Below are positions 25,187-49,622 of a stretch of DNA of 64,000 bases, in pieces; position 1 is the first letter of the stretch; every line of letters begins with the position of its first letter. The stretch covers positions 2,309,345-2,373,344 of the forward strand of contig NZ_FQZX01000001.1 of the NCBI RefSeq assembly GCF_900142175.1. Reading direction: 5' to 3'. The notes beneath the pieces are model-generated. The model was not told the origin of the DNA and ran no database searches. It worked only from the letters and a program-made list of their open reading frames with translations. The stretch comes from Maribacter aquivivus (GTDB lineage: Bacteria; Bacteroidota; Bacteroidia; Flavobacteriales; Flavobacteriaceae). The translations under genes were made by a program, and so were the position numbers.

Positions 25187-25256
25187 CCATTCACCGACAG
25201 TAAACTGCCATTCACCTATTGCTGCCATTTTAAGATTGATTAATCTCTAATCTTTG
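25187..25256 (+). promoter_or_regulatory. LytTR-type site A and promoter, before the H-NOX/NosP operon
   Basis: Half-sites CCATTCACCGA (25187-25197) and CCATTCACCTA (25208-25218) are direct repeats exactly 21 bp apart, with the spacer word CAGTAA. The -7 box ends with TTTG at 25253-25256, 45 bp after the second half-site begins. Three other promoters here (36545, 38057, 49553) share the same geometry. Being upstream of the operon that encodes the LytTR regulator, it suggests autoregulation. Confidence 0.75.
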
Positions 25257-25277
25257 TCGTATCAATATAAATGAGCT

Positions 25278-25679
25278 ATGGACATATTACTAATAGAAGA
25301 CGATTTAATAGAAGTTATGAAGTTGAAACGTACAGTTTCTAAACTTAACTTAAAGCATTCAATTATTGAAGCAAAAAATGGTGAAGAAGCGTTAACCTAT
25401 TTAAGGTCTGGCGAAAAATTACCGGATATTATTCTTTTAGATTTGAATATGCCAAGAATGAACGGTATTGAATTTCTAGCTATTTTAAAAGCAGATGAGT
25501 TACTTCAATATTTACCTACAGTTATTTTAACAACCTCAGAAAATAGAGCAGATTTGTTGAAATGTTACCAAGCTGGTATTGCAGGTTATGTAATTAAGCC
25601 ATTAAAATATGAAGATTACGAGTACAAATTAAACGCTGTTTTAGAGTACTGGAATGTTAATCAACTAGTAAAAGGCTAA
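25278..25679 (+). CDS. Single-domain response regulator (CheY/Rcp1-like)
   Basis: 133 residues, a receiver domain only. The acidic pair is E7-D8-D9, the phospho-acceptor D55 is in ILLDLNMPRMNG, the Thr switch in ILTTSEN and the Lys in YVIKPLKYEDY. The motif set is intact. With no output domain it probably serves as a phosphoryl shuttle between the kinases and the Hpt protein encoded in the same cluster. First gene after LytTR site A; 78 bp separate it from the H-NOX gene. Confidence 0.9.
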   Translation: MDILLIEDDLIEVMKLKRTVSKLNLKHSIIEAKNGEEALTYLRSGEKLPDIILLDLNMPRMNGIEFLAILKADELLQYLPTVILTTSENRADLLKCYQAGIAGYVIKPLKYEDYEYKLNAVLEYWNVNQLVKG

Positions 25680-25729
25680 CAAAAAAGCTCATTTCACAAC
25701 ATTTTTTCCTATTTACGTATTAATTTTCC

Positions 25730-25737
25730 TACGTTTG
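25730..25737 (+). promoter_or_regulatory. Possible internal promoter before H-NOX
   Basis: TACGTTTG matches the TAnnTTTG box exactly, 20 bp before the H-NOX ATG. No -33 element is clear. Confidence 0.4.
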
Positions 25738-25757
25738 AGTGTATTTAAAAAAATCAA

Positions 25758-26300
25758 ATGAAAGGAATCGTATTTACCGAGTTTTTAGAAATGGTCGAAT
25801 CTGAGTTCGGTTTAGAGACTGTTGATAATATTATTGAGAAATCAAATTTACCATCAGAGGGTATTTATACTTCTGTAGCTACTTACGAATTTAATGAAAT
25901 GGTAGCGTTGATTACCCAGCTGAGTAAAGAGGTAGATTTACCGGCCGGAGATTTAATTTATGCATTTGGACTATACTTATTCTCAAGTTTAAAAAATGCG
26001 CATCCAGAGGTTATTCAAAGTTACAGAAACCCCATAGGGTTACTATATTCAATAGAGGATCATATACATGTTCATGTAAAAAAACTTTATCCTGAAGCAG
26101 AACTTCCTACGTTTAAGATACTAGAAAAGACTGATAATTCTATTTCCATGATATATTCTTCATCTAGAGGTTTATATAGGTTAGCTCATGGTCTAATTGA
26201 AAAGGCTTTTGAACATTTTAACGGTAAAGCTGATATTACCTATGAACTTCTTAAAGAAGACGGTACTGAAGTAAAATTTGACGTAGTACAACATGGATAA
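25758..26300 (+). CDS. H-NOX (heme nitric oxide-binding) sensor
   Basis: 180 residues, a standalone HNOB domain of normal length. The proximal haem ligand is His104 in DHIHVHVKKLYPEAELPTF, and the haem-propionate motif YxSxR is Y133-S-S-S-R137. The position that carries the O2-stabilising distal Tyr in Caldanaerobacter H-NOX (Tyr140 there) is Leu142 here, so it should bind NO (and CO) but not O2. H-NOX proteins inhibit or switch a partner histidine kinase; the next gene overlaps by 8 bp and encodes one. Cytosolic, no signal peptide. Confidence 0.93.
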   Translation: MKGIVFTEFLEMVESEFGLETVDNIIEKSNLPSEGIYTSVATYEFNEMVALITQLSKEVDLPAGDLIYAFGLYLFSSLKNAHPEVIQSYRNPIGLLYSIEDHIHVHVKKLYPEAELPTFKILEKTDNSISMIYSSSRGLYRLAHGLIEKAFEHFNGKADITYELLKEDGTEVKFDVVQHG

Positions 26301-28656
26301 TAAAGAAGTTCTTCTCTTAAAAAAAGCCCTTGAGCGCCAGAAAAAAGCGCGTAAACAGGCAGAGAATATCTTAGAGGAAAAATCTAAGGAGCTCTATGAT
26401 GTTACTAGTCATTTAAGAGAAACTAATAGTAAACTCGAAAATTTACTAAGCGAAAAAACATCTGAATTAGATGGTATTTTTATAAATATTATCGATCCTT
26501 ACGTGGTAATGGATCTACAATTCAATGTTATTAATATGAACAGATCTGCTAAAGAATTTTTGCAGTTTGATCATAATGATAAGGTAGTAAACCTTTCGCA
26601 ATTTATACATCCAGATTTTATGGAGTATACCCAAGAATCGATGAGATCGATGATTGAGGTAGGTAGCTTAAAAAATTATCGTGCCAAAATTATTCTTGAT
26701 AATGGTGTAGAAAAATGGGTGCAAATTAACGCAAGTCTAGTATATGACAAAAATCAAAGACCAATTGCTGCACAAGGTATCATTAGAGATATTACCCAAG
26801 AAAGCGAAGTAAAAAGACTAGTTGCTGAACAAAAGGCGCAATTAGATATTATAGTAGAGAATTCTCCTTTAGGTATTGTTTTAGCCGTTGACGGAGTAAT
26901 TCTTAAGACCAATAATACTTTTGTTGATATGCTTGGTTATCATGAAAGCGGGCTCAAAAATATTTCTTTCAAATCAATTTCAGAACCAGAAAATGTAGCA
27001 GATTCTCTAAATCAACTTGATGAAATGTGTGCCGGTAGAATTGAAAAATTTACCGAAATTTGGAAGTTTGCTAGAAAAGATGGTTCTACTATAATGGCTA
27101 AAACCAGAATTTCAGCGATACATGATGATCATAGAAAAAAAGATTATCAGGTAGCTATTATAGAAGATATTTCGCATCAACTAGAGGCAGATAGAAAGCT
27201 AGAAGCATCCCAAAATAGATTGGCTGCTCTTATTTCTAATTTACAAACAGGTGTTCTTTTAGAAGACGAGGAAGGTAAAATTGCATTGACCAATCAAAAG
27301 TTCTGTGATTTATTTCATATTAAACAATCTCCTAAGAATATTATTGGCGTTGACTGTGCAGAATCTGAAGAAGAGTATAAAAAGTATTTCAAGAGTCCAA
27401 AAAGCTTTGTTAGTAGAATAGAGGAAATTCTAACTAAAAAAGAAACCGTTTTGGCAGATGAACTTGAAATGATCGATGGTAGAATTTTAGCAAGAGATTT
27501 TATACCTATAGATAATGATGGTGATTACAAGGGGCACTTATGGGCTTATCAAGATATTACCATTTCTAAAAATTATAGAAAGAACTTAGAAAATCAACGA
27601 GAAAAGTATAGTAGTATCATTGCAAACATGAACTTAGGTCTTGTTGAGGTCGATAATGATGATGTTATTCAAATGGTCAACCAAAGCTTTTGTAGTATGT
27701 GTGGCTTTAAAAAAGAAGATCTTATTGGTCAAATTGCTTCTCAAACAATAAAATTTAAGGACGGTAGCCTCATTGAAAAGAAAAATGAAAATAGATTAGG
27801 TGGGGTATCGGATTCTTATGAAGTTGAGGTTTACAATAAAAATAATTCCATTAGACATTGGCTAATTAGTGGTGCGCCTAGGTATGATGATACTGGTGCA
27901 GTTATTGGTTCTATTGGTATACATTTAGATATTACCGATCAAAAATTATTAGAACTTCAAAAAGAAAAATTATTAAAAGATTTAGAGAACAGTAACCAAG
28001 GTTTACAAGAGTATGCCCATATTGTTTCTCATGACCTTAAGTCTCCGTTAAGAAGTATTAGTGCTCTGGCAACTTGGTTAAGTGATGATTATAAAGATGT
28101 TTTAGATGAAGGTGGTAAACAGAATCTTGAGCTTATGCAAGAGAAAGTTGCCTCTATGGATAAACTAATTCATGGTATTTTAGAATATTCTACAGCAAAT
28201 AGTTCTGATTTAGATGATTCTAAAGTAGACCTGAACGAAGTAATAAATGATATAGGCGAGACCATTTATATTCCTGAACATGTGAAATTGGTAATTCCTG
28301 AGACTTTGCCAATTATCATGGCAGATAGAATTAAAGTGCATCAAGTTTTTCAAAATATAATTGGTAATGCGGTTGTGCATATAGAAAGAGAAGTAGGGTT
28401 GGTTGAAGTTCTCTATAAAGACGATGGCGAGTTCTGGCAATTTACCATTAGCGATAATGGGGTAGGTATACCAGAGGAGTATCATAAGAAGATTTTCGAC
28501 ATATTTCAATCTATAGGTAATAATGAAAGGTCTACTGGTATTGGGCTTTCAATAGTTAAGAAAATAGTAGATCGTTACCAAGGTAGCGTTTGGGTAGATA
28601 GCGTTGTTGGGGAAGGAACTCAATTTCATTTTACCATAAAGAAAAACCATAACTAA
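26293..28656 (+). CDS. Multi-PAS histidine kinase, H-NOX partner
   Basis: 787 residues, soluble. A coiled coil (1-55, Lys/Glu-rich) is followed by four PAS-like domains (about 58-175, 180-300, 308-420, 435-555), then HisKA with phospho-acceptor H580 (VSHDLKSPLRSI) and HATPase_c with the N box (NIIGNAV), SDNGVGIP and STGIGLSIVKKI. There is no receiver domain, so it donates phosphate in trans. It overlaps the H-NOX stop by 8 bp, which strongly suggests that H-NOX controls its activity. The PAS domains may add redox or ligand inputs. It has no transmembrane segment, unlike the kinase at 32319. Confidence 0.92.
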   Translation: MDNKEVLLLKKALERQKKARKQAENILEEKSKELYDVTSHLRETNSKLENLLSEKTSELDGIFINIIDPYVVMDLQFNVINMNRSAKEFLQFDHNDKVVNLSQFIHPDFMEYTQESMRSMIEVGSLKNYRAKIILDNGVEKWVQINASLVYDKNQRPIAAQGIIRDITQESEVKRLVAEQKAQLDIIVENSPLGIVLAVDGVILKTNNTFVDMLGYHESGLKNISFKSISEPENVADSLNQLDEMCAGRIEKFTEIWKFARKDGSTIMAKTRISAIHDDHRKKDYQVAIIEDISHQLEADRKLEASQNRLAALISNLQTGVLLEDEEGKIALTNQKFCDLFHIKQSPKNIIGVDCAESEEEYKKYFKSPKSFVSRIEEILTKKETVLADELEMIDGRILARDFIPIDNDGDYKGHLWAYQDITISKNYRKNLENQREKYSSIIANMNLGLVEVDNDDVIQMVNQSFCSMCGFKKEDLIGQIASQTIKFKDGSLIEKKNENRLGGVSDSYEVEVYNKNNSIRHWLISGAPRYDDTGAVIGSIGIHLDITDQKLLELQKEKLLKDLENSNQGLQEYAHIVSHDLKSPLRSISALATWLSDDYKDVLDEGGKQNLELMQEKVASMDKLIHGILEYSTANSSDLDDSKVDLNEVINDIGETIYIPEHVKLVIPETLPIIMADRIKVHQVFQNIIGNAVVHIEREVGLVEVLYKDDGEFWQFTISDNGVGIPEEYHKKIFDIFQSIGNNERSTGIGLSIVKKIVDRYQGSVWVDSVVGEGTQFHFTIKKNHN

Positions 28657-28667
28657 AGATTCACAAA

Positions 28668-29798
28668 ATGAAAATAGTTCAAGGAATAAAAAAACCAAAT
28701 GAATCTTTTGTAATTAAAGATTCTACGCTACTTAATGAACCGTTAGTATTGGTTTTTGGTAATCGATATATTTTAGAAAGTAATCAAATATATACAGAGG
28801 TTAGCAAATTATTTCCAAATGGTCATATCGTTTTTGGTACCACTTCAGGTGAAATTATAGATGATACTGTTTTGGACGGATGCGTTGTTTTAACTGCTAT
28901 TGAATTTGAGAAGAGTTCAATTTTGGTAAAAAGAAGCAATGTGGCAGATTTTAAAAATGATGATAAAAAACTGGGAGAGGGTTTAATAGCTGAGTTCCCT
29001 AAAGAAAATTTAAAGCATTTATTTGTAATATCTGAAGGTAGTACCGTTAATGGTAGTGCTCTTATAGAAGGTTTAGAACATTTAAAAAACACGAGTTTTG
29101 GACTTTCTGGCGGATTATGTGGTGATGATGATCGTTTTGAAAGAACATTGGCATCTTATAATGAAAACCCGAAGGAAGGCGAAATAATAGCTATAGGTTT
29201 TTATGGTGATACCTTAGAAATTACCAGTTCTAATTATGGTGGTTGGACCACTTTTGGACCTGAACGTATTATCACAAAATCTGAAGGTAATCTACTTTTT
29301 GAATTAGATGGTAAACCGGCATTAGATCTTTACAAAACCTACCTAGGTGAAAAGGCAGATGAATTGCCGAAGTCGGCATTGCTTTATCCGTTAAGTGTAA
29401 AAGTAACAGATGATGCAGAGCCTTTGGTTAGAACTATTCTTAATATTGATGAAGTAGAAAATACTATGACACTCGCTGGTGACGTTCCAGAAGGGGCAAG
29501 GGTGCAATTAATGATGTCGTCTGTAGATGATATTGCAAATGGGGCATTTCATGCAGCAGAACTCGCTATGAGTGATAGAAAAAAATCTCCAGAGTTAGCG
29601 TTATTGATTAGTTGTATTGGTAGAAAGTTGGTAATGGATCAACGTACCGAAGAAGAAATCGAAGAAGTTAAAGCAGTAATTGGTGATAATACGGTAATAA
29701 GCGGATTTTACTCCTACGGCGAAATGGCACCTTTTAGCGGTCAAGATAGTTGTAAATTGCACAATCAGACCATGACTCTAACCTTATTTAGCGAATAA
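28668..29798 (+). CDS. FIST-domain protein (NosP-like NO sensor)
   Basis: 376 residues with FIST_N (about 20-215; VFGTTSGEIID, GLSGGLCGDD) and FIST_C (about 220-370; ending GFYSYGEMAPF...LHNQTMTLTLF). FIST proteins of this length are the NosP family, shown in Pseudomonas, Vibrio and Legionella to bind haem and NO and to regulate a co-encoded hybrid kinase. The haem ligand is not settled in the family; the conserved His of LHNQTMT is present here. It is 11 bp after the first kinase and overlaps the second by one base, so it probably pairs with the second. The family call is firm; NO binding is inference. Confidence 0.88.
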   Translation: MKIVQGIKKPNESFVIKDSTLLNEPLVLVFGNRYILESNQIYTEVSKLFPNGHIVFGTTSGEIIDDTVLDGCVVLTAIEFEKSSILVKRSNVADFKNDDKKLGEGLIAEFPKENLKHLFVISEGSTVNGSALIEGLEHLKNTSFGLSGGLCGDDDRFERTLASYNENPKEGEIIAIGFYGDTLEITSSNYGGWTTFGPERIITKSEGNLLFELDGKPALDLYKTYLGEKADELPKSALLYPLSVKVTDDAEPLVRTILNIDEVENTMTLAGDVPEGARVQLMMSSVDDIANGAFHAAELAMSDRKKSPELALLISCIGRKLVMDQRTEEEIEEVKAVIGDNTVISGFYSYGEMAPFSGQDSCKLHNQTMTLTLFSE

Positions 29799-30856
29799 TG
29801 CATTCCCTGTTAAAAAGACAAATTCGAAAATATTTACCAGAAGATCTAAAGGCGCACCCAGAAATGGAAAGTTTTTTAGAAGCTGTAGAAAAATCTTATG
29901 AGAATTTTGATGATAAATTTTCTATGCTTCATAGAGCTTCAGCTATTAGTTCTGACGAACTTTTTGAAGCCAATAAAAGCTTACAGAAAGAGGCATTGCA
30001 ACAAAAGAGTATTCTTGTTTCTCTAGAAAACGCTATTCGTAGTTTAAGAGAGAATTTGAATGATGAAAAGACTATAAAGATTCAAGATGAGTTTAATACA
30101 GAAGAACTTGCAACTTACATAAGTAATTTGGCATCGCAGGTTTCAGAGATGTCAACAGAAAAAGATAAACTTCTAAGTAGTTTAGAAAACCAGAATGAAT
30201 CTTTAAATAATTATGCGCAAATGGTATCGCATGATTTAAAATCGCCTATTCGAAACATCAACGCGTTGATGAGTTGGATAATGGAAGATGAAAAAGATAA
30301 ATTTTCTGATGTTAGTAAAGAAAATTGCTCATTGGTATCTGAAAATCTTACCAAGATGGACAAGCTTATTAGTGGTATTCTAAAACACGCCACAATGGGT
30401 GAAACTGAAGAGCATAAAGTATCGTTTAGTTTAGAAGATAGTCTTAAAGATATTGAACAGACTATTTACGTACCTGAAAACATAACCTTTGAGTATAATG
30501 AAGAATTGCCGGAGATGTTCTTTGAAAGAGCACGTTTAGAGCAATTGTTCATGAATTTATTCACTAATGCTGTAACGGCAACTGAACATGTAGATAAAGG
30601 TGTAATCAAAATTGGTTACGAGCCAGATGACACTTATTGGAAATTCAGTGTTTCAGATAATGGAAAGGGAATACCTGAAAAACATCAAAAAGGAATTTTT
30701 GAGATGTTTAAAAAGCTGGAGACAGCCAATAATGCTACCGGCATCGGACTTGCAATTGTTAAGAAAATTGCGGTACTTTATGAAGGCGATGTTCGGTTAG
30801 AATCAGAAGAAAACGTTGGTACTACGTTTTATATCACATTAAAAAAGAATTCATGA
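29798..30856 (+). CDS. Histidine kinase, FIST/NosP partner
   Basis: 352 residues, soluble. The N-terminal helical region (LPEDLKAHPEMESFLEAVEKSYENFDDKF, then SSDELFEANKSLQ) is the linker commonly found in kinases encoded beside FIST genes. A coiled coil and HisKA with H145 (VSHDLKSPIRNINALM) follow, then HATPase_c with SDNGKGIPE and NATGIGLAIVKKI. There is no PAS, receiver or membrane segment, so sensing must come from a partner. Start codon and FIST stop overlap (TAATG); the stop overlaps the Hpt start by 4 bp. It resembles the C-terminal half of the kinase at 26293, suggesting a shared downstream target. Confidence 0.9.
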   Translation: MHSLLKRQIRKYLPEDLKAHPEMESFLEAVEKSYENFDDKFSMLHRASAISSDELFEANKSLQKEALQQKSILVSLENAIRSLRENLNDEKTIKIQDEFNTEELATYISNLASQVSEMSTEKDKLLSSLENQNESLNNYAQMVSHDLKSPIRNINALMSWIMEDEKDKFSDVSKENCSLVSENLTKMDKLISGILKHATMGETEEHKVSFSLEDSLKDIEQTIYVPENITFEYNEELPEMFFERARLEQLFMNLFTNAVTATEHVDKGVIKIGYEPDDTYWKFSVSDNGKGIPEKHQKGIFEMFKKLETANNATGIGLAIVKKIAVLYEGDVRLESEENVGTTFYITLKKNS

Positions 30857-31173
30857 TAGAACAACCCAACCTTAATTATGTAGATGAACTTGCCGGTGAC
30901 GACATTGCTTTTAGAAATCAGTTTCTTGATATTATTAAAAACGAATTTCCGTTAGAAAAGGAAGAATATTTTGGTCATGTAAAAAATACAAGAGTAAAAG
31001 AAACTGCCGAAATCGTTCATAAGCTAAAACATAAGTTCAATATTTTAGGAATGGAAAATTCTTATAAGCTAGCAGTAGCCTATGAAATGGAATTATTGGA
31101 TGGTAAGCACGATAGTCAATCTAAATTCGTTGAAGTATTAGAAACTATTGAAGAATACATTAAAACAATTTAA
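30853..31173 (+). CDS. Hpt phosphotransfer protein
   Basis: 106 residues, all helical. H56 in EIVHKLKHKFNILGM fits the Hpt motif in which the His is followed by KLK and a Gly nine residues later. Stand-alone Hpt proteins relay phosphate between receivers. Its overlap with the kinase gene and zero-gap join to the LytTR gene place it as the last step from receiver (25278) to regulator (31174). Confidence 0.85.
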   Translation: MIEQPNLNYVDELAGDDIAFRNQFLDIIKNEFPLEKEEYFGHVKNTRVKETAEIVHKLKHKFNILGMENSYKLAVAYEMELLDGKHDSQSKFVEVLETIEEYIKTI

Positions 31174-31884
31174 ATGAACTGTATTATAATCGATGATGAA
31201 GCCACGGCAAGATTAGTTGTAAGGCAATTATGTTCAAAAATACCTGAGCTCGATGTTATTGAAGAATTTGATAATGCCATTTCGGCTATCAAGTTTTTAA
31301 ATCATCAAAATATTGATGTTATCTTTTTAGATATACATATGCCAGGTTTTAGTGGTGTCGATTTTATACAAACGCTTAAGGATCCACCAAAAGTAGTTAT
31401 GACTACTTCTGACACAGATTTCGCAATAGCCGCTTACGAATATGAATGTATTGTTGATTATTTGGTGAAACCCATTACGTTAGAGCGTTTTGAAAAAAGT
31501 ATTGAAAAAATTAAGAATAGTTCTTCTAAAAAGCCACAAGCACAGGTAGCGCCGCAACAAAATTCATCTGAAGATGAAGATTTATATATTAATATTGACC
31601 GAAGATTGATTAAGTTGAAACTCAATGAAATTTTGGTTATCGAAGCCAAAGGCGATTACATTGATGTTAAAACAGAGAAAGAAGACCATAGGGTACATAC
31701 TACCTTGAAAAAAATAAAGGAAAAATTACCTGAAAAGTTGTTTCTGCAAATACACCGATCTTATATCATCAACTTTACCAAAATTATTGATATAGAAGAT
31801 AATAGTGTGCTTATAGCTAAAAATGTGGTGCCCATTAGTAGATCTAATCGTCCAGAATTAATGAGACGTTTAAACCTTCTTTAA
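31174..31884 (+). CDS. LytTR-family response regulator
   Basis: 236 residues. A receiver domain (1-115; D7-D8, phospho-acceptor D53 in FLDIHMPGFSG, Lys in YLVKPITLERF) is linked by a Gln/Ser/Lys-rich hinge (about 116-133) to a LytTR DNA-binding domain (135-236; VIEAKGDYIDV, LQIHRSYIINF, VVPISRSNRPEL). LytTR regulators bind two direct repeats about two helical turns apart. Four matching sites are in this window. It is the only LytTR gene present and the last gene of the H-NOX/NosP operon. It converges with the receiver gene at 31904 with only 19 bp between. Confidence 0.94.
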   Translation: MNCIIIDDEATARLVVRQLCSKIPELDVIEEFDNAISAIKFLNHQNIDVIFLDIHMPGFSGVDFIQTLKDPPKVVMTTSDTDFAIAAYEYECIVDYLVKPITLERFEKSIEKIKNSSSKKPQAQVAPQQNSSEDEDLYINIDRRLIKLKLNEILVIEAKGDYIDVKTEKEDHRVHTTLKKIKEKLPEKLFLQIHRSYIINFTKIIDIEDNSVLIAKNVVPISRSNRPELMRRLNLL

Positions 31885-32317: not shown

Positions 32318-32318
32318 T

Positions 32319-34371: not shown

Positions 34372-36432
34372 TTAATCTAAGTTTAACTTTTTGTGGAATA
34401 ATGGTTTACTTAGAAACAACCATTTTGCTTTTAATCCAATTTCTGTAAACTCAAATCCGGCTGCTGTGGCAGAGGCGATATTACTATACTTGCCATACAC
34501 ATTTAAGCTAAATCGTTTTGAGAATTGACGTTGTACAGAAGCTTCAGCCCTAAAAATAGCCGTTTTAGCATCATCCTCTACTTGTTGAATACCTGTGGCC
34601 GCACTAGCCATATACGTTGTTTTTTCTGAGATGTTACCTCGTATATCTGCAAATAATTCGACTGCTTTGTAAACTTCTGGACTAAAGTATATGGTAGGTA
34701 CTTGGTCTTTAAATGTAATATACTGAAAGTTAACCCCCATTTTTAATGCAGGTTTACGCAGCACATTATAGTATAAAGAAGTAAATAATAAATTTCTAAC
34801 GTTGTCATCACTCTGTTGGGTGTGCATTAGTTGCGTATACCAACCAAAATTTACATTAGTACCAAGGTTATAATTAAGACCATAATGGTTTTGTACAATT
34901 TCACGTTCTATTAATTCAGCATTAAAACTCTGTACTTCTCGTTGGTATCCAAGTGTTAAGTTTTGCAATTTAAAAGGTTGCATATCTAATTTAATATCTA
35001 AAACAGGTTGTGTATATGCATCATCTAAAAATCTAGAGTTGTTTAAACCAAGCACTGTTTTTAAAACAGTTTTAGGAAATAACTTGTATTGTAAGCCGGC
35101 CAATAGAACATGAGAGGTTGCTTTATTATCTGTAACACTATTTTCTGTCGTTCTAAAAAAGTAAGAAACCGTAGTTCTAAATTTTGTGCTAAAAGGTACA
35201 TCAACGGTAGTATTGGTGAAAAAGGCAACATTATTACCATTGTCAAAAGTATAGGCTGCATGTTCCTCAATTGTAGGGGTATGCATTAAATTTAGCTTTT
35301 CAATAAAGCCTTTGGCATCTTTTTGATTCTTATAGAATTTTAATGTCTGGTTGGCCATACTGTATGCTGGTATAATCTTGTCAGATGCGAATAATGCATT
35401 TGCCTTACCTAAATTACCATCAAATGAAGCACTGTCATTAACCAAAATTCTATCATAACTTTCAACACTAGATTTAGCATCACCAGTATATAGACCTAAT
35501 GTAGCTTTTAATGCTAGAATCCAATTTTTATTAGGGTAGTGTACCTCTAGACTATCAATCTTATTTCTAGCAGAAATAAACTTTCTGTTCCATATTAATG
35601 CTTGTACATAACGATCGTAAGTACTTTCGGTAAGTTTTACATCATCAATTTTATCAACTTTTACGGTTGCTCCTTTAGAGATAATAAGTGCCTCTTTATC
35701 ATTTTCATCGATATGCTCTGCCAATGCAATACCATTTAATGCGGTAATAGAATCTTTAGGGGTAGTTGCATATCTAACATAAATATCTTTTGCCTTATCT
35801 GCTTGTTTGATAATAAGATATAAGTTTGCCAAGTTTATAAGTACATCTTTATCTTCAGGGAAATCTTCAAAAATCTTTTTTAAAGTTTGCTCTCCTTTTC
35901 CATATTGCTGATTGTTTACAAACTGATTTGCATAGCCTAAACGCATAAATTTTCGAGAGACTTTTGCACTTGCATTTTCTGGATCTAACGCAATTGCCTT
36001 TTCAACCCAACTTAATGCTAATTCATATTCTTTTAAATTACTTAAGGTATTGGCATACCCTAATACTGCACCAAATTTGGTTGGGAATTTTTCTACCAAA
36101 TCTGCATATAAGGGTCTTGCTTGTTCATATTCTTTCGCCCACAAATAAGATTCGTTGTAATTAATTAAGATTTCAAAATCACCAGGGTAATCTTTTAAAA
36201 GGTCTGCGAACAAACCAGTTGATTTTTGTGGTTCGCCACTTAAACCAACCGCACGCCCATAACAGAGCAATGCCGTTTTATTATTTGGGTCTGTTTTAAG
36301 GTAATCACCAAAAAAAAGTTCTGCCTCTTGAAAATCACCTTTCTCTAAAAGACCAAAGCCTTTGGTCATATCAGATTGTGCTTTTAATAAGGATGAGGTT
36401 AAAAGAATAAGGAATACTACTTTACGAATCAT
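34372..36432 (-). CDS. TPR protein with outer-membrane barrel-like C-terminus
   Basis: 686 residues. A signal peptide (1-18, ending LKAQ) is followed by at least seven tetratricopeptide-like repeats (about 20-380; ALLCYGRAVGLSGEPQKS, ALSWVEKAIALDPENA). The C-terminal 290 residues are rich in alternating aromatic strands (TVSYFFRTT, LTLGYQREVQSF, FSLNVYGKYSN) like an outer-membrane beta-barrel. The same order occurs in exopolysaccharide exporters such as PgaA and BcsC. It is divergent from the first flippase with LytTR site B between them, supporting a role in secreting the polysaccharide. Export is inference; the TPR and signal peptide are visible. Confidence 0.72.
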   Translation of the reverse strand: MIRKVVFLILLTSSLLKAQSDMTKGFGLLEKGDFQEAELFFGDYLKTDPNNKTALLCYGRAVGLSGEPQKSTGLFADLLKDYPGDFEILINYNESYLWAKEYEQARPLYADLVEKFPTKFGAVLGYANTLSNLKEYELALSWVEKAIALDPENASAKVSRKFMRLGYANQFVNNQQYGKGEQTLKKIFEDFPEDKDVLINLANLYLIIKQADKAKDIYVRYATTPKDSITALNGIALAEHIDENDKEALIISKGATVKVDKIDDVKLTESTYDRYVQALIWNRKFISARNKIDSLEVHYPNKNWILALKATLGLYTGDAKSSVESYDRILVNDSASFDGNLGKANALFASDKIIPAYSMANQTLKFYKNQKDAKGFIEKLNLMHTPTIEEHAAYTFDNGNNVAFFTNTTVDVPFSTKFRTTVSYFFRTTENSVTDNKATSHVLLAGLQYKLFPKTVLKTVLGLNNSRFLDDAYTQPVLDIKLDMQPFKLQNLTLGYQREVQSFNAELIEREIVQNHYGLNYNLGTNVNFGWYTQLMHTQQSDDNVRNLLFTSLYYNVLRKPALKMGVNFQYITFKDQVPTIYFSPEVYKAVELFADIRGNISEKTTYMASAATGIQQVEDDAKTAIFRAEASVQRQFSKRFSLNVYGKYSNIASATAAGFEFTEIGLKAKWLFLSKPLFHKKLNLD

Positions 36433-36544: not shown

Positions 36545-36614
36545 CCATTCGTCTACAGTAATTGGTCATCGACCTAAAGCCTTTAAAATATAAGGGTAGC
36601 CTTCATGATATTTG
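36545..36614 (+). promoter_or_regulatory. LytTR-type site B and promoter, before the first flippase
   Basis: Half-sites CCATTCGTCTA (36545-36555) and TCATCGACCTA (36566-36576) are 21 bp apart with CAGTAA in the spacer. The box GATATTTG has its TTTG at 36611-36614, 45 bp after the second half-site begins. The region is also upstream of the divergent TPR/barrel gene. Confidence 0.78.
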
Positions 36615-36657
36615 ATGTAGAACCAAGTCAATGTTGAGACTTAAAAAAAACATGATT

Positions 36658-37905
36658 ATGACAGCAATTAGAGTAGTACTACACAAAATTTCTCCAGAAA
36701 AATTATTTATGGGGAGCGTACTTTTAGTAAACGGAGGTAATTATCTCTATAACCTTATACTGGGTAGATTACTTGGTCCGGCAGCATATAGTGAGGCTGC
36801 TTTACTTATTACATTACTACTTGTGCTATCTTTTTTAGGAATGACCTTTCAATTGGCAACAGCCAAATTTGCCATATTGTTCAACAATGATGATTGGGTT
36901 GCTTTAAAACAATTGTTATATAAGTATGCTTTAGGTTTTGGTACATTAATAGGTATTTTACTATTTACTTTTGCCGGTAGCTTACAAGAACTATTTCATA
37001 CAGAATCTTCTCTGTTATTTAAAACCTTTGCAGTATCGGTGCCTTTATATTTTTTTATGTCGGTTAATAGAGGAAGGTACCAAGGCAAACAAGATTATCA
37101 GAAACTATCGCTAACCTACCAAACAGAAATGTGGAGTAGGTTATTGATAACACTTGGGTTGCTATGGTTGGTACCTTTTGAGCCTGCTTTTTTAGTAGCA
37201 TTGGGTATTGGATTGTCTTTTGTATTCGGATTAATTCCTACAGATTTTAATATTAAGAGCATTATTCAAACAGTTACCTTATCCAAAGAAAATAAAAGAA
37301 AAGTAATCAGTTTTATAGTATTGACAGCCTGTTATGAACTTACCCAGATTATCATAAATAACAGTGATATTCTTTTAGTAAAACATTATTTCGATACTCT
37401 AAATGCCGGACTCTATTCTTCTTTGGCCATGATAGGGCGTGTCGTTTATTTTGTTGCTTGGATGTTCGTAATGCTATTACTACCTACCGTTGTACAAAAA
37501 CAAAAAGATGGAGAGGCAACAGCTCCTATATTAATAAAGTACGTAAGTTATGTTGGGGTATTGGCTATTGTTATAATTTTCTGTTGTGCTGTTTTTCCTA
37601 AATTAATAATTCAATTAATGTTTGGCGAAGCTTATATTTCAATGGCACCTTTATTATGGCAATATGCCTTGGCTACCTCTTTATTCGCTATCTCAAATAT
37701 ATTTGCCTACTACTTTTTATCACTAGATAAATATATACCTGTAATACTTTCTGGTGTGTTGGGTATATCACAAATTGTTATGATCGTATTCTTTCATAGT
37801 ACCTTATATATGGTGGTACAAGTTCAAATTATAGCCATGGTTACTTTGCTGGTAGCACAGTTGCTTTATTTTGCGCACAATAATATACTGAACAAGACCT
37901 CTTAA
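36658..37905 (+). CDS. Polysaccharide flippase (MOP/Wzx type), copy 1
   Basis: 415 residues from the ATG at 36658, chosen because the paralogue at 40855 starts with the same MTAI; in-frame ATGs at 36652 and 36631 are possible. About twelve hydrophobic segments spread over the whole length with the FMGSVLLVNGGNYLYNLILGRLLGP opening typical of Wzx-like oligosaccharide flippases. It would move lipid-linked sugar units across the inner membrane. LytTR site B lies 82-113 bp upstream. A second copy at 40855 is clearly homologous throughout. Confidence 0.87.
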   Translation: MTAIRVVLHKISPEKLFMGSVLLVNGGNYLYNLILGRLLGPAAYSEAALLITLLLVLSFLGMTFQLATAKFAILFNNDDWVALKQLLYKYALGFGTLIGILLFTFAGSLQELFHTESSLLFKTFAVSVPLYFFMSVNRGRYQGKQDYQKLSLTYQTEMWSRLLITLGLLWLVPFEPAFLVALGIGLSFVFGLIPTDFNIKSIIQTVTLSKENKRKVISFIVLTACYELTQIIINNSDILLVKHYFDTLNAGLYSSLAMIGRVVYFVAWMFVMLLLPTVVQKQKDGEATAPILIKYVSYVGVLAIVIIFCCAVFPKLIIQLMFGEAYISMAPLLWQYALATSLFAISNIFAYYFLSLDKYIPVILSGVLGISQIVMIVFFHSTLYMVVQVQIIAMVTLLVAQLLYFAHNNILNKTS

Positions 37906-38056: not shown

Positions 38057-38126
38057 CCATTCGTCTATAGTAACGCTTCATCCACCTAAAATCACCTAAA
38101 AAGCCTTTGTCATAGTTAGATATTTG
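38057..38126 (+). promoter_or_regulatory. LytTR-type site C and promoter, before GT4 copy 1
   Basis: Half-sites CCATTCGTCTA (38057-38067) and TCATCCACCTA (38078-38088) are 21 bp apart with TAGTAA in the spacer. The box GATATTTG has its TTTG at 38123-38126, 45 bp after the second half-site begins. Confidence 0.8.
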
Positions 38127-38164: not shown

Positions 38165-39394
38165 ATGAGACTTGCAATTGTAACAGCCTACCCACCAAGT
38201 AAAGTAACATTGACCGAATACGGTTATCACTTGGTAAAACATTTTAGACTTCAAAAAGAAGTAACAGAAATAATATTGATTACCGATAAGACGGAAGGTG
38301 ATAAGGATTTAAATTTTAAAGAAGACGGATGCAAGATTATAGTTAAGGAGTGTTGGAATTTTAATGACTACAAAAATATCTTTAAGATTAACCGAGCTAT
38401 TTCACAAACAAAGCCCGATGCTGTACTTTTTAATCTGCAGTTTTTAAAATTCGGAGATAAAAAAATACCTGCTGCACTTGGTTTAATGCTACCCTTAATG
38501 TGCAAGCTAAAAGGTATACCTACTATTTCTTTACTACATAATATATTGGAGCAGGTAGATTTAGATAACGCTGGTATTACCTCAAATAAAGTGCTGCAGA
38601 AAGTTTATAATGGTATCGGTAATGTTTTAACTAGATGTGTTTTGGCTTCAGATGTTGTTGCAGTGACTATTAGTAAATATCAAACGATATTAGAAAACAA
38701 ATTTCAATCTAGAAATGTGGCATTAATTCCACATGGCTCATTTGAAACTCCGCCAACCCCAGATTATAGTTTACCTGCAGGACCAAAAAAAGTGATGGCT
38801 TTTGGTAAGTTCGGCACGTATAAAAAGGTCGAAATAATGATTGAAGCGATCGAGTTAATTAGACAACGTACCAATGAAGATATAGAAATTGTAATTGCAG
38901 GTACAGATAGCCCAAATACACCTGGTTACTTAGAAAGTATGAAAAAGAAATATGCACATGTAAACCAATTAGTTTTTACAGGTTATGTTGCAGAAGAAGA
39001 TGTTCCGGTGTTATTTGGTGATAGCGCGTTAGTTGTTTTTCCATATACATCTACAACGGGCAGTTCTGGTGTGTTGAACCAAGCTGGCAGTTATGGTAAA
39101 GCGGTTGCGTTGCCAGATTTAGGTGACCTTAGTATTCTAGTAAAGGAAGAAGGCTATAAAGGCGAGTTCTTTGATCCGGAAAGTACAGCCTCATTAGCAG
39201 ACGCCATTGAAAGTATTTTGTTGCATGATTCTTATAGAACATATTTAGCAAAAGCAAATTATAGAGCAGCGTGTTCTTTTCCAATGGAAGATATTACGAA
39301 AATGTATATAGAATACTTTAAAGTTCTACAAGTTGCCAAAACAAAAGGATTCACTTTAGATGTACCAATGGTAGAAAAAGAATTAATGGCATAA
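38165..39394 (+). CDS. GT4-family glycosyltransferase, copy 1
   Basis: 409 residues, GT-B fold. The N-terminal acceptor domain starts RLAIVTAYPPSKVTLTEYG; the C-terminal donor domain has a GKFGTYKKVE loop and the E-x7-E-like region PYTSTTGSSGVLNQAGSYG followed by a VALPDLGDL segment. It has no transmembrane segment, so it works at the cytosolic face of the membrane. The sugar donor is unknown. It has its own LytTR promoter (site C) and terminator, and a close paralogue at 42176. Confidence 0.9.
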   Translation: MRLAIVTAYPPSKVTLTEYGYHLVKHFRLQKEVTEIILITDKTEGDKDLNFKEDGCKIIVKECWNFNDYKNIFKINRAISQTKPDAVLFNLQFLKFGDKKIPAALGLMLPLMCKLKGIPTISLLHNILEQVDLDNAGITSNKVLQKVYNGIGNVLTRCVLASDVVAVTISKYQTILENKFQSRNVALIPHGSFETPPTPDYSLPAGPKKVMAFGKFGTYKKVEIMIEAIELIRQRTNEDIEIVIAGTDSPNTPGYLESMKKKYAHVNQLVFTGYVAEEDVPVLFGDSALVVFPYTSTTGSSGVLNQAGSYGKAVALPDLGDLSILVKEEGYKGEFFDPESTASLADAIESILLHDSYRTYLAKANYRAACSFPMEDITKMYIEYFKVLQVAKTKGFTLDVPMVEKELMA

Positions 39395-39675: not shown

Positions 39676-40815
39676 ATGAAAATACTAACCATTGATGATC
39701 AACAACTTATTTTATTATCTGTTGAGAAAAGACTTACCGAATTAGGTTATGATGTAAAAACAGCTGATTCTGGTAAAAAAGGAATAGAAGTATATGATTC
39801 ATTTGAACCAGATTTAGTTCTTGTAGATATAAATATGCCAGATATGTCTGGTTTAGATGTTGTTAAACATATTAAAGAAGGCAAACGTAATACTACGCGG
39901 GTATTGGTTATGTCTGGTAACACCGATGAAACCATTATTACAGATGGCTTTACTTTAGGTATTGACGATTATATGAAAAAACCTGTGAGTTTGTCTGAAA
40001 TGGCGGCTCGTATTAAAAGGTTGATCGGCGCGCCAGTTATTGAACTGAATGCACAAGAGTCTACTAGCACTAGAATGCTCCAAAAAAACTGTGTAGGGGT
40101 TGTTATACCTTGTTATAATGAAGAAGAACGTCTTTTAGGAAAAGAGTTCAGAGACTTTGCGCATAGTAACCTTGGGTACCATCTTTGTTTTGTAAACGAC
40201 GGTAGTACAGATAAAACACTAGAAGTTTTAGAAGAATTAAAGAAAGGCAACGAAAGCAATATCAGTATATACGATTGCGAGAAAAATGGTGGTAAGGCCG
40301 AAGCGGTACGCTTGGGTATGCTACACTTGGCAAAAGACCTTCAGTTAGATTATATCGGATTTTTAGATGCCGATCTGTCTACCGATTTTAGGGATTTTGA
40401 CGATTTAGTAGAAACCTTAGATCAATCTGATTTTAAGATTGTTAGTGGTTCTAGAATGAGTAGAATGGGTGCAGATATTACTAAAGAATCTGCACGTAAG
40501 GTTATTAGTATGACTATTAACCTAATCATTAGAACCATTTTAAGAATGCCATTTAATGATACCCAATGTGGAGCAAAAGTGATGGATCGTTCAGTAGTTC
40601 CTTTACTTTTTAGTAAACCTTTTATTACCAAGTGGTTGTTTGATGTTGAAATGTTTATTCGAATGAGAAAATACTTTGGTAAAACCGAAGCGAAAAAACT
40701 TATTTGTGAGCAACCATTAAAAAGATGGATACATGCCGATGGTTCTAAATTATCAATGAAAGATTCTGTCAAAATCGTTGGTCAGTTGGCAAAAATCGCT
40801 TTTGTATATAGATAA
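39676..40815 (+). CDS. Receiver domain fused to GT2 glycosyltransferase, copy 1
   Basis: 379 residues. Residues 1-118 form a complete CheY-type receiver (D7-D8, phospho-acceptor D51 in LVLVDINMPDMSG, Ser in LVMSGNTDE, Lys in DYMKKPVS). Residues about 138-345 form a GT2 domain like dolichyl-phosphate glucosyl/mannosyltransferases: GVVIPCYNEEERL, FVNDGSTD, D231-A-D233 in GFLDADLSTDF, GSR, and TQCGAKVMD. There is no membrane segment. It probably transfers a sugar to a lipid carrier, with phosphorylation of the receiver controlling activity. Lacks a visible LytTR site; 39 bp separate it from the next flippase. Confidence 0.9.
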   Translation: MKILTIDDQQLILLSVEKRLTELGYDVKTADSGKKGIEVYDSFEPDLVLVDINMPDMSGLDVVKHIKEGKRNTTRVLVMSGNTDETIITDGFTLGIDDYMKKPVSLSEMAARIKRLIGAPVIELNAQESTSTRMLQKNCVGVVIPCYNEEERLLGKEFRDFAHSNLGYHLCFVNDGSTDKTLEVLEELKKGNESNISIYDCEKNGGKAEAVRLGMLHLAKDLQLDYIGFLDADLSTDFRDFDDLVETLDQSDFKIVSGSRMSRMGADITKESARKVISMTINLIIRTILRMPFNDTQCGAKVMDRSVVPLLFSKPFITKWLFDVEMFIRMRKYFGKTEAKKLICEQPLKRWIHADGSKLSMKDSVKIVGQLAKIAFVYR

Positions 40816-43428: not shown

Positions 43429-43457
43429 AGGCTGGTGTGGTAACCAGCCTTTTTTTA
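43429..43457. terminator. Terminator between GT4 copy 2 and the glycosidase
   Basis: AGGCTGGT / ACCAGCCT perfect stem, 6-nt loop, TTTTTTT tail on the plus strand; convergent genes. Confidence 0.93.
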
Positions 43458-43511
43458 TGCCTTATTTTTCGACACCTATTATTGAATTGGATTGCGCAGA
43501 AAAATGGTTGC

Positions 43512-46278: not shown

Positions 46279-46279
46279 A

Positions 46280-49200
46280 CTATTTAGGATTACCGATATA
46301 ACTGTTAATCTCAAACTTTATGTACTCATATCCTTTTCCTTTGAAAGGCTGTGCCTGCTGCATTCCATGTTCCAATTTTCTATTGGGGAATAATTTATCG
46401 GCTATGGCTTTATTGGGCGAACCGTTTACAAAGCAATTTTCTAAACTACTGCTTACAACTGCTAAACTATCCAAATCTAAAGGTTTGTAATTAAAGAACT
46501 GTTTACGCTGTATGCGCACCCCTTCGGTTACAAATTTATGATCTACCCAAAGTAACTTGCCCTCAGCGTCATAATACGAGATTATAAGCTGCGGAATTGT
46601 CACTTCTTGCACGCCCGAATTAAATAGTACTCCATTGAAACCTTGCTCTGTGTAGACCAAATCTTGTAAAGCAACATGCTTATACAAATCAGTATTGGCC
46701 GTGTTACCTGCAGATTGCAAATTGAATTTTGTGGGTTGTTCTTCAAAACTAACTGGAGTAAACTCGTCTGGATTAAAAGTTGGTGGTAGGGTGTCTTTGG
46801 TAGAAGACCACGCAATACCTTCAAAGTTAATTTTGAACGTTGTCGTTTCTTTCGGCATCAACTTATGCTTAATTTGATGCTTGGCGTTGTAATTTGCCAA
46901 CTCCTTATTATAGTCATTATACAAGGTTGCTTTAATAACGATATCTGCAGGAGTATTGTCAACATTTTGTAACTCGCCAATAATGCTATATTGCCCTTTG
47001 TATTTTACCAGTTTAGCTGATAAAATTTCTAGAACGGGCTGTTTTAATACATCTTCATGATAGGTTTCTTGGGTCGTAATTTTTCGTCTACCGTGGTTAT
47101 AATATGTGGTGCTGTTTGCAGTAAAAAGTTGATCTGGCGGAATGTCATTATCAACTTTTGATGATTTTACGTACCACTTGTTTTTTCGTTTTACCAGTTC
47201 ATGATGGTCGTTGTTGAATACATTTTCTAATGGGGTGATCCACCTAGTTGAAACTTTCGCTTTTGCACTATTTTCAGTTTCATCGTAAATTTCTATTCCC
47301 AACGAATCTAGTTTTGCGTATGAACTTAAAATACCGTCAGTCACGGAAACTTCTAGCATATACTGGGCTATATCAATATGCTGCTCTGGATCTATGTATG
47401 AATGTGCTCTAGAGAATTCTTTAAAATCTAAGGCGTCATAATAAGATTCTACCACATTATTGGGTGATAATTGCGTGACATTTTTTACGTAAAATATGTA
47501 CATGCCATATCCCATACAAATCAATATTAACAATGCCCACCAATGTGAGAAGGTTAATAGCTTTGACGGGAATTTATTGTAAGGCAGTTCTAATTTCATA
47601 AAAGAATGCACCGGTACTTTTTTAGACTTTAGTAGTCGCACCCAAATCATCTGAATATTTACGAAAATTGCAATAAGTACGGTCGATAGCGGAATGATAC
47701 CCCACATAATTTTCATTATGGTGGGTACATCTTGTTTGGGCATGATTTGCGGTATAGGTGCCACATTCAGCTTCTCCCAAACCATAATGCCGTTTTCTAA
47801 TTGTTGCAACCTTTGCCAGCCACAATAGTAGAGGATGGGGTCATAGAATTTATCGTTCGAGAAAATGTACTTTAAATTATATTTTTCGGGTACGGTCAAG
47901 AATTGTTGTAAAGATCCAATACCTTCAACACCTCTAAATTTGGAGTTTTCTATTCGTTCTATCGCTCTGGTAGTTAATTCAGGTAATCGCCGTGCAGAGT
48001 GGTAATTTCCATCTACGGTCATTGCGCCGGTTTGTGCAGAAAGCCAAGCCATTTGATCACCAAAACCAAGCGGTAAATATCGCCATGAATCATGCGAATC
48101 TGCCCCTAGAAAGTTGACAATGGGAAGCATCTTTATTTTTGCAGGCTGCGAGGGTCTAAAATAGCCCAAGGTCATGGTAAATAGTACCATAAATAACATT
48201 CCGCCTGCAATTAATCCGCCTAAGACCCTATGGTAAACTCCGCCGAATCTTTCTTGTATCAATGCTTTTAAATCTCCTTCAACCATCCGGTAGGCAAACT
48301 CTGCGAATATGGGGAGTGCCATAATGGTTGCCCATAACGTAAACCTATCTAACGTAAGAATATTGAAAGCCATTTCACCCAACATCATACGCGGAATAGG
48401 AGTAGTGCCACCGGTTCCTAAGATTGTTAATAGTGCAAAAGACAATCCGAAGAATACATACCTTTTACTAAAATATCTGTAAAAAAAATAGGGTAGAATA
48501 AATAGAAATACTCCCCACGGAATTATAAAGAAAACAAGCCCTGAGGAAGTAATTTCCAAGAAATTATCTCTTGACCCATGAGGTATGGCTACCTGGGTAA
48601 TAGGGTTTCTTTTAGAATTATACCAATACGGAAAAATACAGAATATGAGTAAAAATATTGCGGTACCACCAAACTTGGCTATGCGCCAAAAGTGCTGTAA
48701 AGTGGTGCCCCAAAATACTTTAAATGTAAGCGCTTTGTAAGATTCTACTTTTTCCCTAGCGGCATCCATAACCGCCATACCCATTAAAGGAGCGATGAAG
48801 AATACCATACCAAAAAGCGGAGTTACATGATGTGAGGTAACCGTTACAGCAAGCATAGTCGCTGATGTTATAAAGTACCGTGTTTTATCTGTTTTAATAT
48901 ACAGGTATATTTCGGTCATGGAATGCAGTAGTATCGATAATGCCGAGATACTGGGTAATTGTCCGAAGATATGAAGGGTTTCTACAAATGTAGAAGAGAA
49001 AACAGCCATTACTGCCCCATAACCCGCTATTCGCCGGCTGCCCGTCATTAAAAGTGTAAACCTATATGCCCCAGTAATAAATAGAACGATTGCAATTAAA
49101 GCAACCGTGTACATACCAAATTTTAAGCCGCCTATGTAAGAGAGAATACCAATGAGTTGATGTACTAATGGTGGGTACGACTGTACCGTAAAACCTGTAT

Positions 49201-49369
49201 ACCAGCGATATTCCCACGGATCAAACCAGCTATTGGCATAGTGATCGGCGAAAAATAAATGAATTAATGCATCGTAGGTAGATTCTAACGTAAAGAAAAT
49301 AGCAGAACCGTGAAAAGCAAGCCCTACGATTAAAGCTAATATTAAGAGGGTATTGGTTTTTTTTTCCAA
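46280..49369 (-). CDS. Giant polytopic GT-C-like membrane protein with FxLYD-type domains
   Basis: 1029 residues from a TTG start (49369); an in-frame stop just upstream excludes an earlier start. Residues 1-430 hold about a dozen membrane segments with a conserved acidic/His loop (TYDALIHLFFADHYA, EYRWYTGFTVQSYPPLVH), as in GT-C glycosyltransferases and the 6-pyruvoyl-tetrahydropterin-synthase-related membrane family. A periplasmic domain (430-560), two more membrane segments (near 570 and 625), an NTF2-like domain (645-750) and two FxLYD-like beta domains (760-1000) follow. It could transfer lipid-linked sugars to the growing polymer. It heads an operon with the lipoprotein and glycosidase. 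Promoter region shared with LytTR site D. Confidence 0.72.
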   Translation of the reverse strand: MEKKTNTLLILALIVGLAFHGSAIFFTLESTYDALIHLFFADHYANSWFDPWEYRWYTGFTVQSYPPLVHQLIGILSYIGGLKFGMYTVALIAIVLFITGAYRFTLLMTGSRRIAGYGAVMAVFSSTFVETLHIFGQLPSISALSILLHSMTEIYLYIKTDKTRYFITSATMLAVTVTSHHVTPLFGMVFFIAPLMGMAVMDAAREKVESYKALTFKVFWGTTLQHFWRIAKFGGTAIFLLIFCIFPYWYNSKRNPITQVAIPHGSRDNFLEITSSGLVFFIIPWGVFLFILPYFFYRYFSKRYVFFGLSFALLTILGTGGTTPIPRMMLGEMAFNILTLDRFTLWATIMALPIFAEFAYRMVEGDLKALIQERFGGVYHRVLGGLIAGGMLFMVLFTMTLGYFRPSQPAKIKMLPIVNFLGADSHDSWRYLPLGFGDQMAWLSAQTGAMTVDGNYHSARRLPELTTRAIERIENSKFRGVEGIGSLQQFLTVPEKYNLKYIFSNDKFYDPILYYCGWQRLQQLENGIMVWEKLNVAPIPQIMPKQDVPTIMKIMWGIIPLSTVLIAIFVNIQMIWVRLLKSKKVPVHSFMKLELPYNKFPSKLLTFSHWWALLILICMGYGMYIFYVKNVTQLSPNNVVESYYDALDFKEFSRAHSYIDPEQHIDIAQYMLEVSVTDGILSSYAKLDSLGIEIYDETENSAKAKVSTRWITPLENVFNNDHHELVKRKNKWYVKSSKVDNDIPPDQLFTANSTTYYNHGRRKITTQETYHEDVLKQPVLEILSAKLVKYKGQYSIIGELQNVDNTPADIVIKATLYNDYNKELANYNAKHQIKHKLMPKETTTFKINFEGIAWSSTKDTLPPTFNPDEFTPVSFEEQPTKFNLQSAGNTANTDLYKHVALQDLVYTEQGFNGVLFNSGVQEVTIPQLIISYYDAEGKLLWVDHKFVTEGVRIQRKQFFNYKPLDLDSLAVVSSSLENCFVNGSPNKAIADKLFPNRKLEHGMQQAQPFKGKGYEYIKFEINSYIGNPK

Positions 49370-49552
49370 AGGTTATATTAGAATCAAATTCTATATAAAG
49401 GTATTAAATATATAAGATGATCAATACAATAAAAGGGGATTAGTTGAAATTTTAATAATAGAATACCTACAATATGGTGTTCTGTTATTATCAATTCGTA
49501 ATAATGGCAAGGACTAAAATTTTAAAATTAGATCGTTATCTAATGTTATAAA

Positions 49553-49622
49553 CCACTCGTCTACAGTAAACAGTTATCCATCTTGTTTGAACCCTATTTG
49601 CGCTACATGCCAAGTAAATTTG
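49553..49622 (+). promoter_or_regulatory. LytTR-type site D and promoter, before receiver-GT2 copy 2
   Basis: Half-sites CCACTCGTCTA (49553-49563) and TTATCCATCTT (49574-49584), 21 bp apart, with CAGTAA in the spacer. TAAATTTG (49615-49622) is a perfect TAnnTTTG box whose TTTG begins 45 bp after the second half-site. The second half-site is the weakest of the four. The divergent operon at 49369 shares this region. Confidence 0.76.

Follow-up and report, generated by a model that had tools for sequence, protein, structure and literature searches.

Introduction

LytTR regulatory systems have autoregulatory operators just upstream of the -35 region (PMC6193735). These operators are built from repeats of 9–11 nt with 11–13 nt between them (PMC4847170), and the majority of LytTR regulators act as activators from positions upstream of -35 (PMC11347149). 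The operators of YpdB and of the Streptococcus mutans LytTR systems are direct repeats about one 21-bp step apart, located upstream of the promoter and involved in autoregulation. AgrA and ComE are further LytTR operator cases. Here we describe four sites of likewise geometry in a 64,000-nt stretch of the Maribacter aquivivus genome (GCF_900142175.1, NZ_FQZX01000001.1:2,309,345–2,373,344, forward strand; hereafter the window), which are candidate operators of a LytTR response regulator encoded in a signalling operon of the same locus. The Maribacter sites depart from the known LytTR operators in the greater length of the first half-site (17 bp), in a core resembling that of AlgR, in a frequent third repeat, and in a flavobacterial -7 box at a fixed distance of 45 bp.

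AlgR of Pseudomonas aeruginosa controls the exopolysaccharide alginate and recognizes the core CCGTTCGTC; its sites are not necessarily 12-bp-spaced direct repeats and may be distant, single, or oppositely oriented (PMC4064291). An earlier note on this DNA had placed the AlgR core one base from the half-site, and it indeed shows a single mismatch to the first nine bases, being one base from the Maribacter CCATTCGTC. Exopolysaccharide control is common to AlgR and the proposed regulon, whereas AlgR sites, which may be distant, single, or opposite in orientation, are unlike the paired direct repeats described here. The likeness to AlgR is a resemblance at the motif level and not membership. The His_kinase family contains the AlgZ-type partner kinases, and no operon protein matched this family in a Pfam scan. 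CoxC and RcoM have a LytTR domain, three direct repeats, and a gas input, as would the present system; however, they are one-component regulators with the sensor in the same chain, whereas the sensor and the regulator are separate proteins here.

The H-NOX pathways outlined in PMC8738867 act via cyclic diguanosine monophosphate (c-di-GMP) or quorum sensing, with gene-expression pathways mentioned and FIST proteins noted near H-NOX. In the H-NOX kinase networks of Vibrio and Shewanella, H-NOX lies beside a histidine kinase and a phosphorelay controls biofilm formation, and the gene layout is similar here. Unlike the Vibrio and Shewanella outputs, those of the present locus would be the LytTR regulator and perhaps enzymes in which a receiver is joined to a GT2 domain (receiver-GT2). 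No description of such a system was apparent from the result lists of a search of the open-access literature, with most subscription papers outside its coverage.

Geometry of the Four Sites

The sites and the TTTG words of their -7 boxes are as follows.

25166..25176, +, weak third half-site, 21 bp upstream of site 1 (11.8 bits)
25187..25218, +, site 1 (half-sites 25187 and 25208), before the operon head
25253..25256, +, TTTG of the -7 box, promoter 1
36545..36576, +, site 2 (half-sites 36545 and 36566), before flippase 1 and divergent from the TPR porin gene
36611..36614, +, TTTG of the -7 box, promoter 2
38057..38088, +, site 3 (half-sites 38057 and 38078), before GT4 copy 1
38123..38126, +, TTTG of the -7 box, promoter 3
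49553..49584, +, site 4 (half-sites 49553 and 49574), before receiver-GT2 copy 2
49619..49622, +, TTTG of the -7 box, promoter 4

In 4/4 sites, the second half-site begins 21 bp after the first, AGTAA begins at offset 12, and TTTG begins 45 bp after the start of the second half-site, in agreement with the spacings given in the earlier note. No further site was found in the window with a 32-bp consensus (both strands, ≤9 mismatches). The nearest downstream open reading frame (ORF) starts are 25278, 36631, 38165, and 49657, which confirms that the sites precede the signalling operon, flippase 1, GT4 copy 1, and receiver-GT2 copy 2. A degenerate pattern with ≤2 mismatches gave five matches in the own genome (4,578,396 bases, 4.58 Mb, 11 contigs). 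Four were exact and fell within the window, and the single match outside it had 2 mismatches; the reversed pattern gave one. Furthermore, a matrix seeded with the four sites and refined on related loci scored them at 35.6–43.0 bits, against 10.4 bits for the best score of the reversed matrix in the window.

The first half-sites lie near CCATTCGTCTA with 0–3 differences, and the second half-sites are looser (2–5 differences). AGTAA had been described as a spacer word at a fixed place; the fixed place holds, whereas the column information favours taking the word for the 3' portion of a first half-site of 17 bp. The 21-bp period fits the published repeat and spacer lengths, as expected for LytTR direct repeats about two turns apart. 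The flavobacterial -7 box is TAnnTTTG at -12 to -5 (PMC9723704), which, with TTTG at -8 to -5, would place the promoter-proximal half-site at approximately -53 to -43. A structured RNA was also considered and rejected; only one tRNA matched in the window at Rfam gathering scores, and the -7 box lies downstream of the sites.

Conservation in Related Loci

The earlier note had proposed a scan of relatives with a matrix constrained by the two spacings. The related loci were the best 80 of 565 confirmed stretches around LytTR orthologs (1.57 Mb) from Maribacter, Arenibacter, Zobellia, Cellulophaga, Winogradskyella, Aquimarina, and other genera, and the gene order of the window locus is largely common to them. 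The matrix, which was iterated on these loci, gave 287 hits, 286 of them on the LytTR strand, versus 1 for the reversed matrix, and a site was present within 350 bp of the operon head in 73/75 loci; the motif is thus conserved. The first half-site alone gave 290 hits, with the best second half-site at +21 in 197 of them (the matrix having been trained on paired sites), and three half-sites in step were found in 50/236 arrays of relatives. TTTG was present at +45 after 140 of the 287 hits. The column information was high in the half-sites and in TTTG and low in the DNA between the second half-site and TTTG, a word that had been selected for in the set.

The upstream regions of the gene classes were counted with a reach of 350 or 900 bp. 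Within 350 bp, a site was found for 38/54 GT4 genes (18/20 and 20/34 in the two best-match classes), for receiver-GT2 genes of the copy-2 class in 2/2 scorable loci and of the copy-1 class in 0/14, and for 29/345 unassigned ORFs; none was found for the best matches to operon-internal genes (0/382) or for TPR porins (0/57), the flippase site lying in the divergent upstream region on the opposite strand. In regard to flippases, 40/43 had a site within 900 bp. At this reach, no site was found for FIST (0/39), the second kinase (0/39), Hpt (0/73), or the porin (0/55), and few were found for LytTR (3/84) and the PAS kinase (1/74); the value of 69/71 for H-NOX arises only because the operon head falls within reach. 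By distance alone, several Maribacter genomes also have matches about as far from LytTR as site 4.

Thirteen loci had no flippase, GT4, or porin gene in their stretch. The operon head was included in 10 of them, and 8/10 kept the head site, that of locus L112 being weak (15.4 bits) and L109 and L118 having none. These results indicate that the site follows the LytTR operon and not the polysaccharide genes, and a general loss of the motif from loci that lack neighbouring polysaccharide genes is not borne out. Moreover, sites are present in three loci (L087, L091, and L097) that pair the receiver gene with the LytTR gene and have none for H-NOX, FIST, or Hpt; L091 and L097 have a distant kinase match upstream.

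Co-occurrence with the LytTR Ortholog

A sequence-only profile was built from 52 sites, 4 from the window and 48 of 97 eligible non-redundant sites from relatives; these 48 were selected for TTTG at +45, and the invariance of TTTG in the profile is therefore no evidence. The profile was run over 198 genomes, with E ≤0.001 taken as motif-positive, and the best 150 matches were listed under stricter filters. LytTR matches were counted as orthologs at an E-value no higher than about 1e-68; genome G142, with 41% identity at E 1.7e-61 and a motif E-value of 0.07, was excluded from the comparison.

The ortholog and the motif were both found in 60 genomes, the ortholog only in 6, the motif only in 2, and neither in 130. 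The motif was thus present in 60/66 genomes with the ortholog versus 2/132 without it (Fisher p 5e-41, uncorrected for kinship). Within the genus, the corresponding numbers were 29, 2, 0, and 5. Among the 150 best matches listed, 133 were ≤30 kb from the ortholog, 10 were farther away on the same contig, 6 were on another contig, and 1 was in a genome without the ortholog. We read five of the six ortholog-only genomes, leaving out G083, and in three of them (G006, G037, and G098) sites were present according to the matrix. The motif match in G157 (E 7e-4), itself unplaced, was taken as noise, as there is no such operon around the best LytTR match of that genome. The five congeners without the ortholog (G007, G010, G012, G014, and G025) had no motif. 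They also gave no GT4 ortholog, apart from a 24% match in G012, and their receiver-GT2 matches were all partial and weak. In the genus, the regulator, the motif, and the targets tend to go together.

Sites Outside the Window

The profile ranked the four window sites first in the own genome (E 4e-8 or better), followed by four weaker sites, with the next match at E 0.1. Three of the weaker sites (contig C1, positions 2284721, 2285357, and 2285992; E 6e-6 to 0.0013) lie in the promoters of tandem genes for nearly identical 86-residue proteins, with TTTA at +44. The other (C1:2240749, E 0.008) precedes a PAS kinase and a single receiver (L152:4747–6384); its array has three half-sites with TTTG 45 bp after the last, and it is kept in G017 and G033. 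The earlier note had expected a small dedicated regulon, and this description is supported, except that the regulon is not limited to the four promoters and has members outside the window, the 86-residue genes and the kinase/receiver pair. The motif did not appear at many unrelated promoters, which that note had named as evidence to the contrary, in the scans of the own genome and of Maribacter; in eight Maribacter genomes, the matches at E 0.05, including weak ones, numbered 5–10 per genome.

The 86-residue genes (L148, minus-strand sites 8051, 7416, and 6780; C1:2284721–2286050 of the own genome) encode a signal-like N-terminus, and the proteins look secreted. Copy numbers in the four genomes that we read were 3, 3, 1, and 3, with partial masking of one copy in L151. 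The protein matches no Pfam family and has 113 database homologues, of which the named ones come from Maribacter or marine metagenomes. In L161, L162, and L165 (Maribacter genomes G004, G015, and G022), the gene behind the site encodes 132–135 residues, a membrane protein as judged from its hydrophobic stretches. The dispersed match G019:C10:761451 (L160) was set aside, having no clear gene behind it. Between LytTR and the TPR porin, other genera have large type IX secretion tail proteins (DUF4114 or DUF6923) with sites; the window has none.

L089:11104–13605, type IX tail protein
L121:11749–14358, type IX tail protein
L116:10855–14871, type IX tail protein
L123:11008–13458, type IX tail protein
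(sites approximately 85–120 bp upstream)

Candidate Binding Protein and Mode of Action

The only LytTR gene in the window is in the first operon, as the earlier note stated. The own genome has 18 LytTR matches, so that linkage alone is no proof of the binder. Nevertheless, the co-occurrence across genomes, the site before its own operon in 73/75 loci, the separation of the own-genome matches with E <0.01 from all other LytTR genes (>19 kb), and loci L087, L091, and L097 all point to the LytTR protein of the operon. On these grounds, this protein (31174–31884) very probably binds the sites, and it probably activates from them by analogy with known systems; that the four sites are as a whole its operators is likewise a probable explanation.

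That another LytTR protein of the genome is the true binder, with the operon's LytTR regulating something else, would accord with the 18 matches, with an operator geometry common to LytTR proteins, and with L109 and L118, in which a nearly unchanged LytTR is accompanied by no site. However, the motif co-occurs with this particular ortholog across the 198 genomes scanned and stands before its operon in 73/75 loci, and no other LytTR gene lies within 19 kb of any own-genome match with E <0.01, so we regard this explanation as quite improbable. In 3.2-kb scans around the LytTR genes, nothing was found near the others, which is a weak test, as the operon's own LytTR was also missed (-1.5 bits, the head site being 6 kb away). 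The promoters might instead be alike through recent gene duplication, with no shared operator under selection, since the flippase, GT4, and receiver-GT2 each occur in two copies and the three 86-residue gene promoters belong to tandem copies. Against this, the genes behind the four sites are of different kinds, no site stands before the second flippase, the second GT4, or the first receiver-GT2, the sites persist across many genera, and the sequence information is concentrated as described above in the half-sites and in the selected TTTG; duplication, already disfavoured, is thus very improbable. Lastly, the LytTR protein might bind and repress, with relief coming, for instance, from a gas signal. 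CoxC, a LytTR regulator responsive to carbon monoxide (CO), represses from three direct repeats overlapping -35 (PMC11347149), whereas the repeats here stop short of the -33 region on its upstream side, as is usual for an activator, and repression is accordingly unlikely.

Several observations weigh against the four sites being operators of the operon's LytTR. Because the matrix and the profile were trained near LytTR orthologs, with several such genomes among the 198, the counts are not fully independent. G013 keeps a 78% identical LytTR and the whole operon, and its decayed operon-head site retains a single half-site; neither a GT4 nor a receiver-GT2 ortholog was detected there. G116 has a LytTR gene and nothing above 15.7 bits. 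G084 has an operon-head site and no LytTR gene in the 11.8 kb examined, nor an ortholog in the genome by the LytTR search. The operon heads of L109 and L118 have the LytTR ortholog and lack a site. Among the 73 operon heads that have a site, 35 lack TTTG at +44/45, and the flippase sites of relatives often lie approximately 400 bp upstream of the assumed ORF start, with only 13/43 within 350 bp. An altered DNA-binding domain does not explain the site-less loci, as the domain is nearly unchanged in five of them; three of the five (L107, L108, and L130) do not include the operon head and are uninformative on the head site.

If the operon's LytTR protein is the binder, two or sometimes three half-sites 21 bp apart would lie on one face of the DNA just upstream of -33, with the proximal one at the position given above. 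The phosphorylated protein would most likely bind as a dimer or oligomer and activate transcription; positive feedback on its own operon is likely because the repeats lie upstream of the -33 region, as activating LytTR sites do. It would thereby switch on its own operon together with the flippase, GT4, and receiver-GT2 genes.

Two other LytTR matches in the genome were noted. One (L011, C1:2378394–2378669) lies approximately 5 kb past the end of the window, with no comparable site within 1.5 kb, and the other (L012, C2:571460–571711) has one in-frame TAA and is possibly a pseudogene.

Signalling Operon

The genes of the operon are as follows.

25278..25679, +, single-domain receiver (Pfam Response_reg), encoded at the operon head
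25758..26300, +, H-NOX heme-NO-binding protein (Pfam HNOB, 136.8 bits)
26293..28656, +, PAS histidine kinase (Pfam)
28668..29798, +, FIST protein (Pfam FIST domains; NosP superfamily)
29798..30856, +, second histidine kinase (Pfam)
30853..31173, +, Hpt-like phosphotransfer protein, 106 residues (AlphaFold2, structure matches, conserved H56/K59)
31174..31884, +, LytTR response regulator, proposed DNA-binding protein (Pfam Response_reg and LytTR)

The kinases of the operon match HATPase_c and HisKA of Pfam. Residues D8, D9, D55, T86, and K107 of the receiver are kept in at least 97% of 77 sequences, and D7, D8, D53, T78, and K99 of the LytTR regulator in at least 97% of 81 sequences. The latter protein scored 65.2 and 67.8 bits for its receiver and LytTR domains, against Pfam cut-offs of 30.2 and 22.6, and its best NCBIfam match was BtsR, with 127.9 bits, below the cut-off of 246. 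The H-NOX protein has the HNOB domain with the His and YxSxR conserved, the residues to which heme binding is assigned in H-NOX; H102, H104, Y133, S135, and R137 are kept in at least 97% of 74 sequences. Its nearest solved structures are 6bde (206 bits) and 6bdd (203 bits), which we take to be Kordia algicida H-NOX. The FIST protein was not filed as NosP because it scored 56.4 bits against the NCBIfam NosP cut-off of 450.

The 106-residue protein had no Pfam match. It is predicted to be a helix bundle (AlphaFold2, mean predicted local distance difference test score 95), its best PDB matches are Hpt domains (Foldseek template modeling score 0.75, probability 1.00, with E only 0.06 and above), and H56 and K59 are kept in at least 97% of 75 sequences. 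The predicted helix bundle with an HxxK phospho-histidine motif agrees with membership in the Hpt proteins, the E-values being the weak point.

These proteins may form a multistep phosphorelay, in which H-NOX and perhaps FIST would modulate the two kinases, with transfer through the receiver and the Hpt-like protein to LytTR. Judging from the protein family, nitric oxide (NO) is moderately favoured as a main input. No GGDEF match was found in the own genome at E 0.001, and one was found in only 1 of 120 genomes searched (own included). A c-di-GMP-controlled exopolysaccharide system was accordingly rejected, as the genome gave no match for a GGDEF diguanylate cyclase, and for the same reason the system looks like a heme-sensor-to-exopolysaccharide route without c-di-GMP. 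The receiver-GT2 enzymes could be a second, post-translational output. We propose tentatively, and at slightly less than an even chance, that the H-NOX/FIST phosphorelay branches after Hpt into the LytTR regulon, including its own operon, and phosphorylation of receiver-GT2, as c-di-GMP-free exopolysaccharide control in Flavobacteriaceae. If this branched scheme is true, gene dose and enzyme activity would answer to one signal, and genes often named response regulator are predicted to be glycosyltransferases under phosphorelay control. It would offer a concrete H-NOX-to-polysaccharide route where the pathways outlined in PMC8738867 would fail as described, there being no GGDEF match. The proposed operator, regulator, and target list are testable in a widespread marine family.

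Next to the operon, genes for dihydrodipicolinate-synthase-like, aldehyde dehydrogenase, proline racemase, and FAD oxidoreductase proteins (20246–25152) look like a hydroxyproline degradation operon. A receiver and dCache kinase pair without a site (31904–34106, minus strand) lies between LytTR and the porin and is present in some relatives only.

Polysaccharide Genes

The genes at and near sites 2–4 are as follows.

34372..36432, -, candidate porin for polysaccharide export (TPR protein, C-terminus weakly BcsC/PgaA-like)
36631..37905, +, flippase 1 (Pfam Polysacc_synt_3)
38165..39394, +, GT4 copy 1
39676..40815, +, receiver-GT2 copy 1, no own site above 5.3 bits
49657..50823, +, receiver-GT2 copy 2 (Pfam)

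Flippase 1 is 65% identical to the product of 40855–42126, GT4 copy 1 is 76% identical to GT4 copy 2 at 42176, and the two receiver-GT2 copies are 71% identical. The matrix scan of the window gave no site for the second flippase, the second GT4, or the first receiver-GT2. Assignment as a Pel or PNAG (poly-N-acetylglucosamine) locus was rejected, as the PgaA and PgaC models were weak and below their cut-offs and Pfam gave no Pel-specific model; we therefore refer to an unnamed polysaccharide locus. The receiver-GT2 domain pair was also found in the 120 best homologues among those listed, and D7, D8, and D51 are kept in at least 97% of 14 sequences of the copy-1 class. The two receiver-GT2 fusions have numerous close homologues in Flavobacteriaceae, which are often annotated as response regulators and in a few cases as transcriptional regulators.

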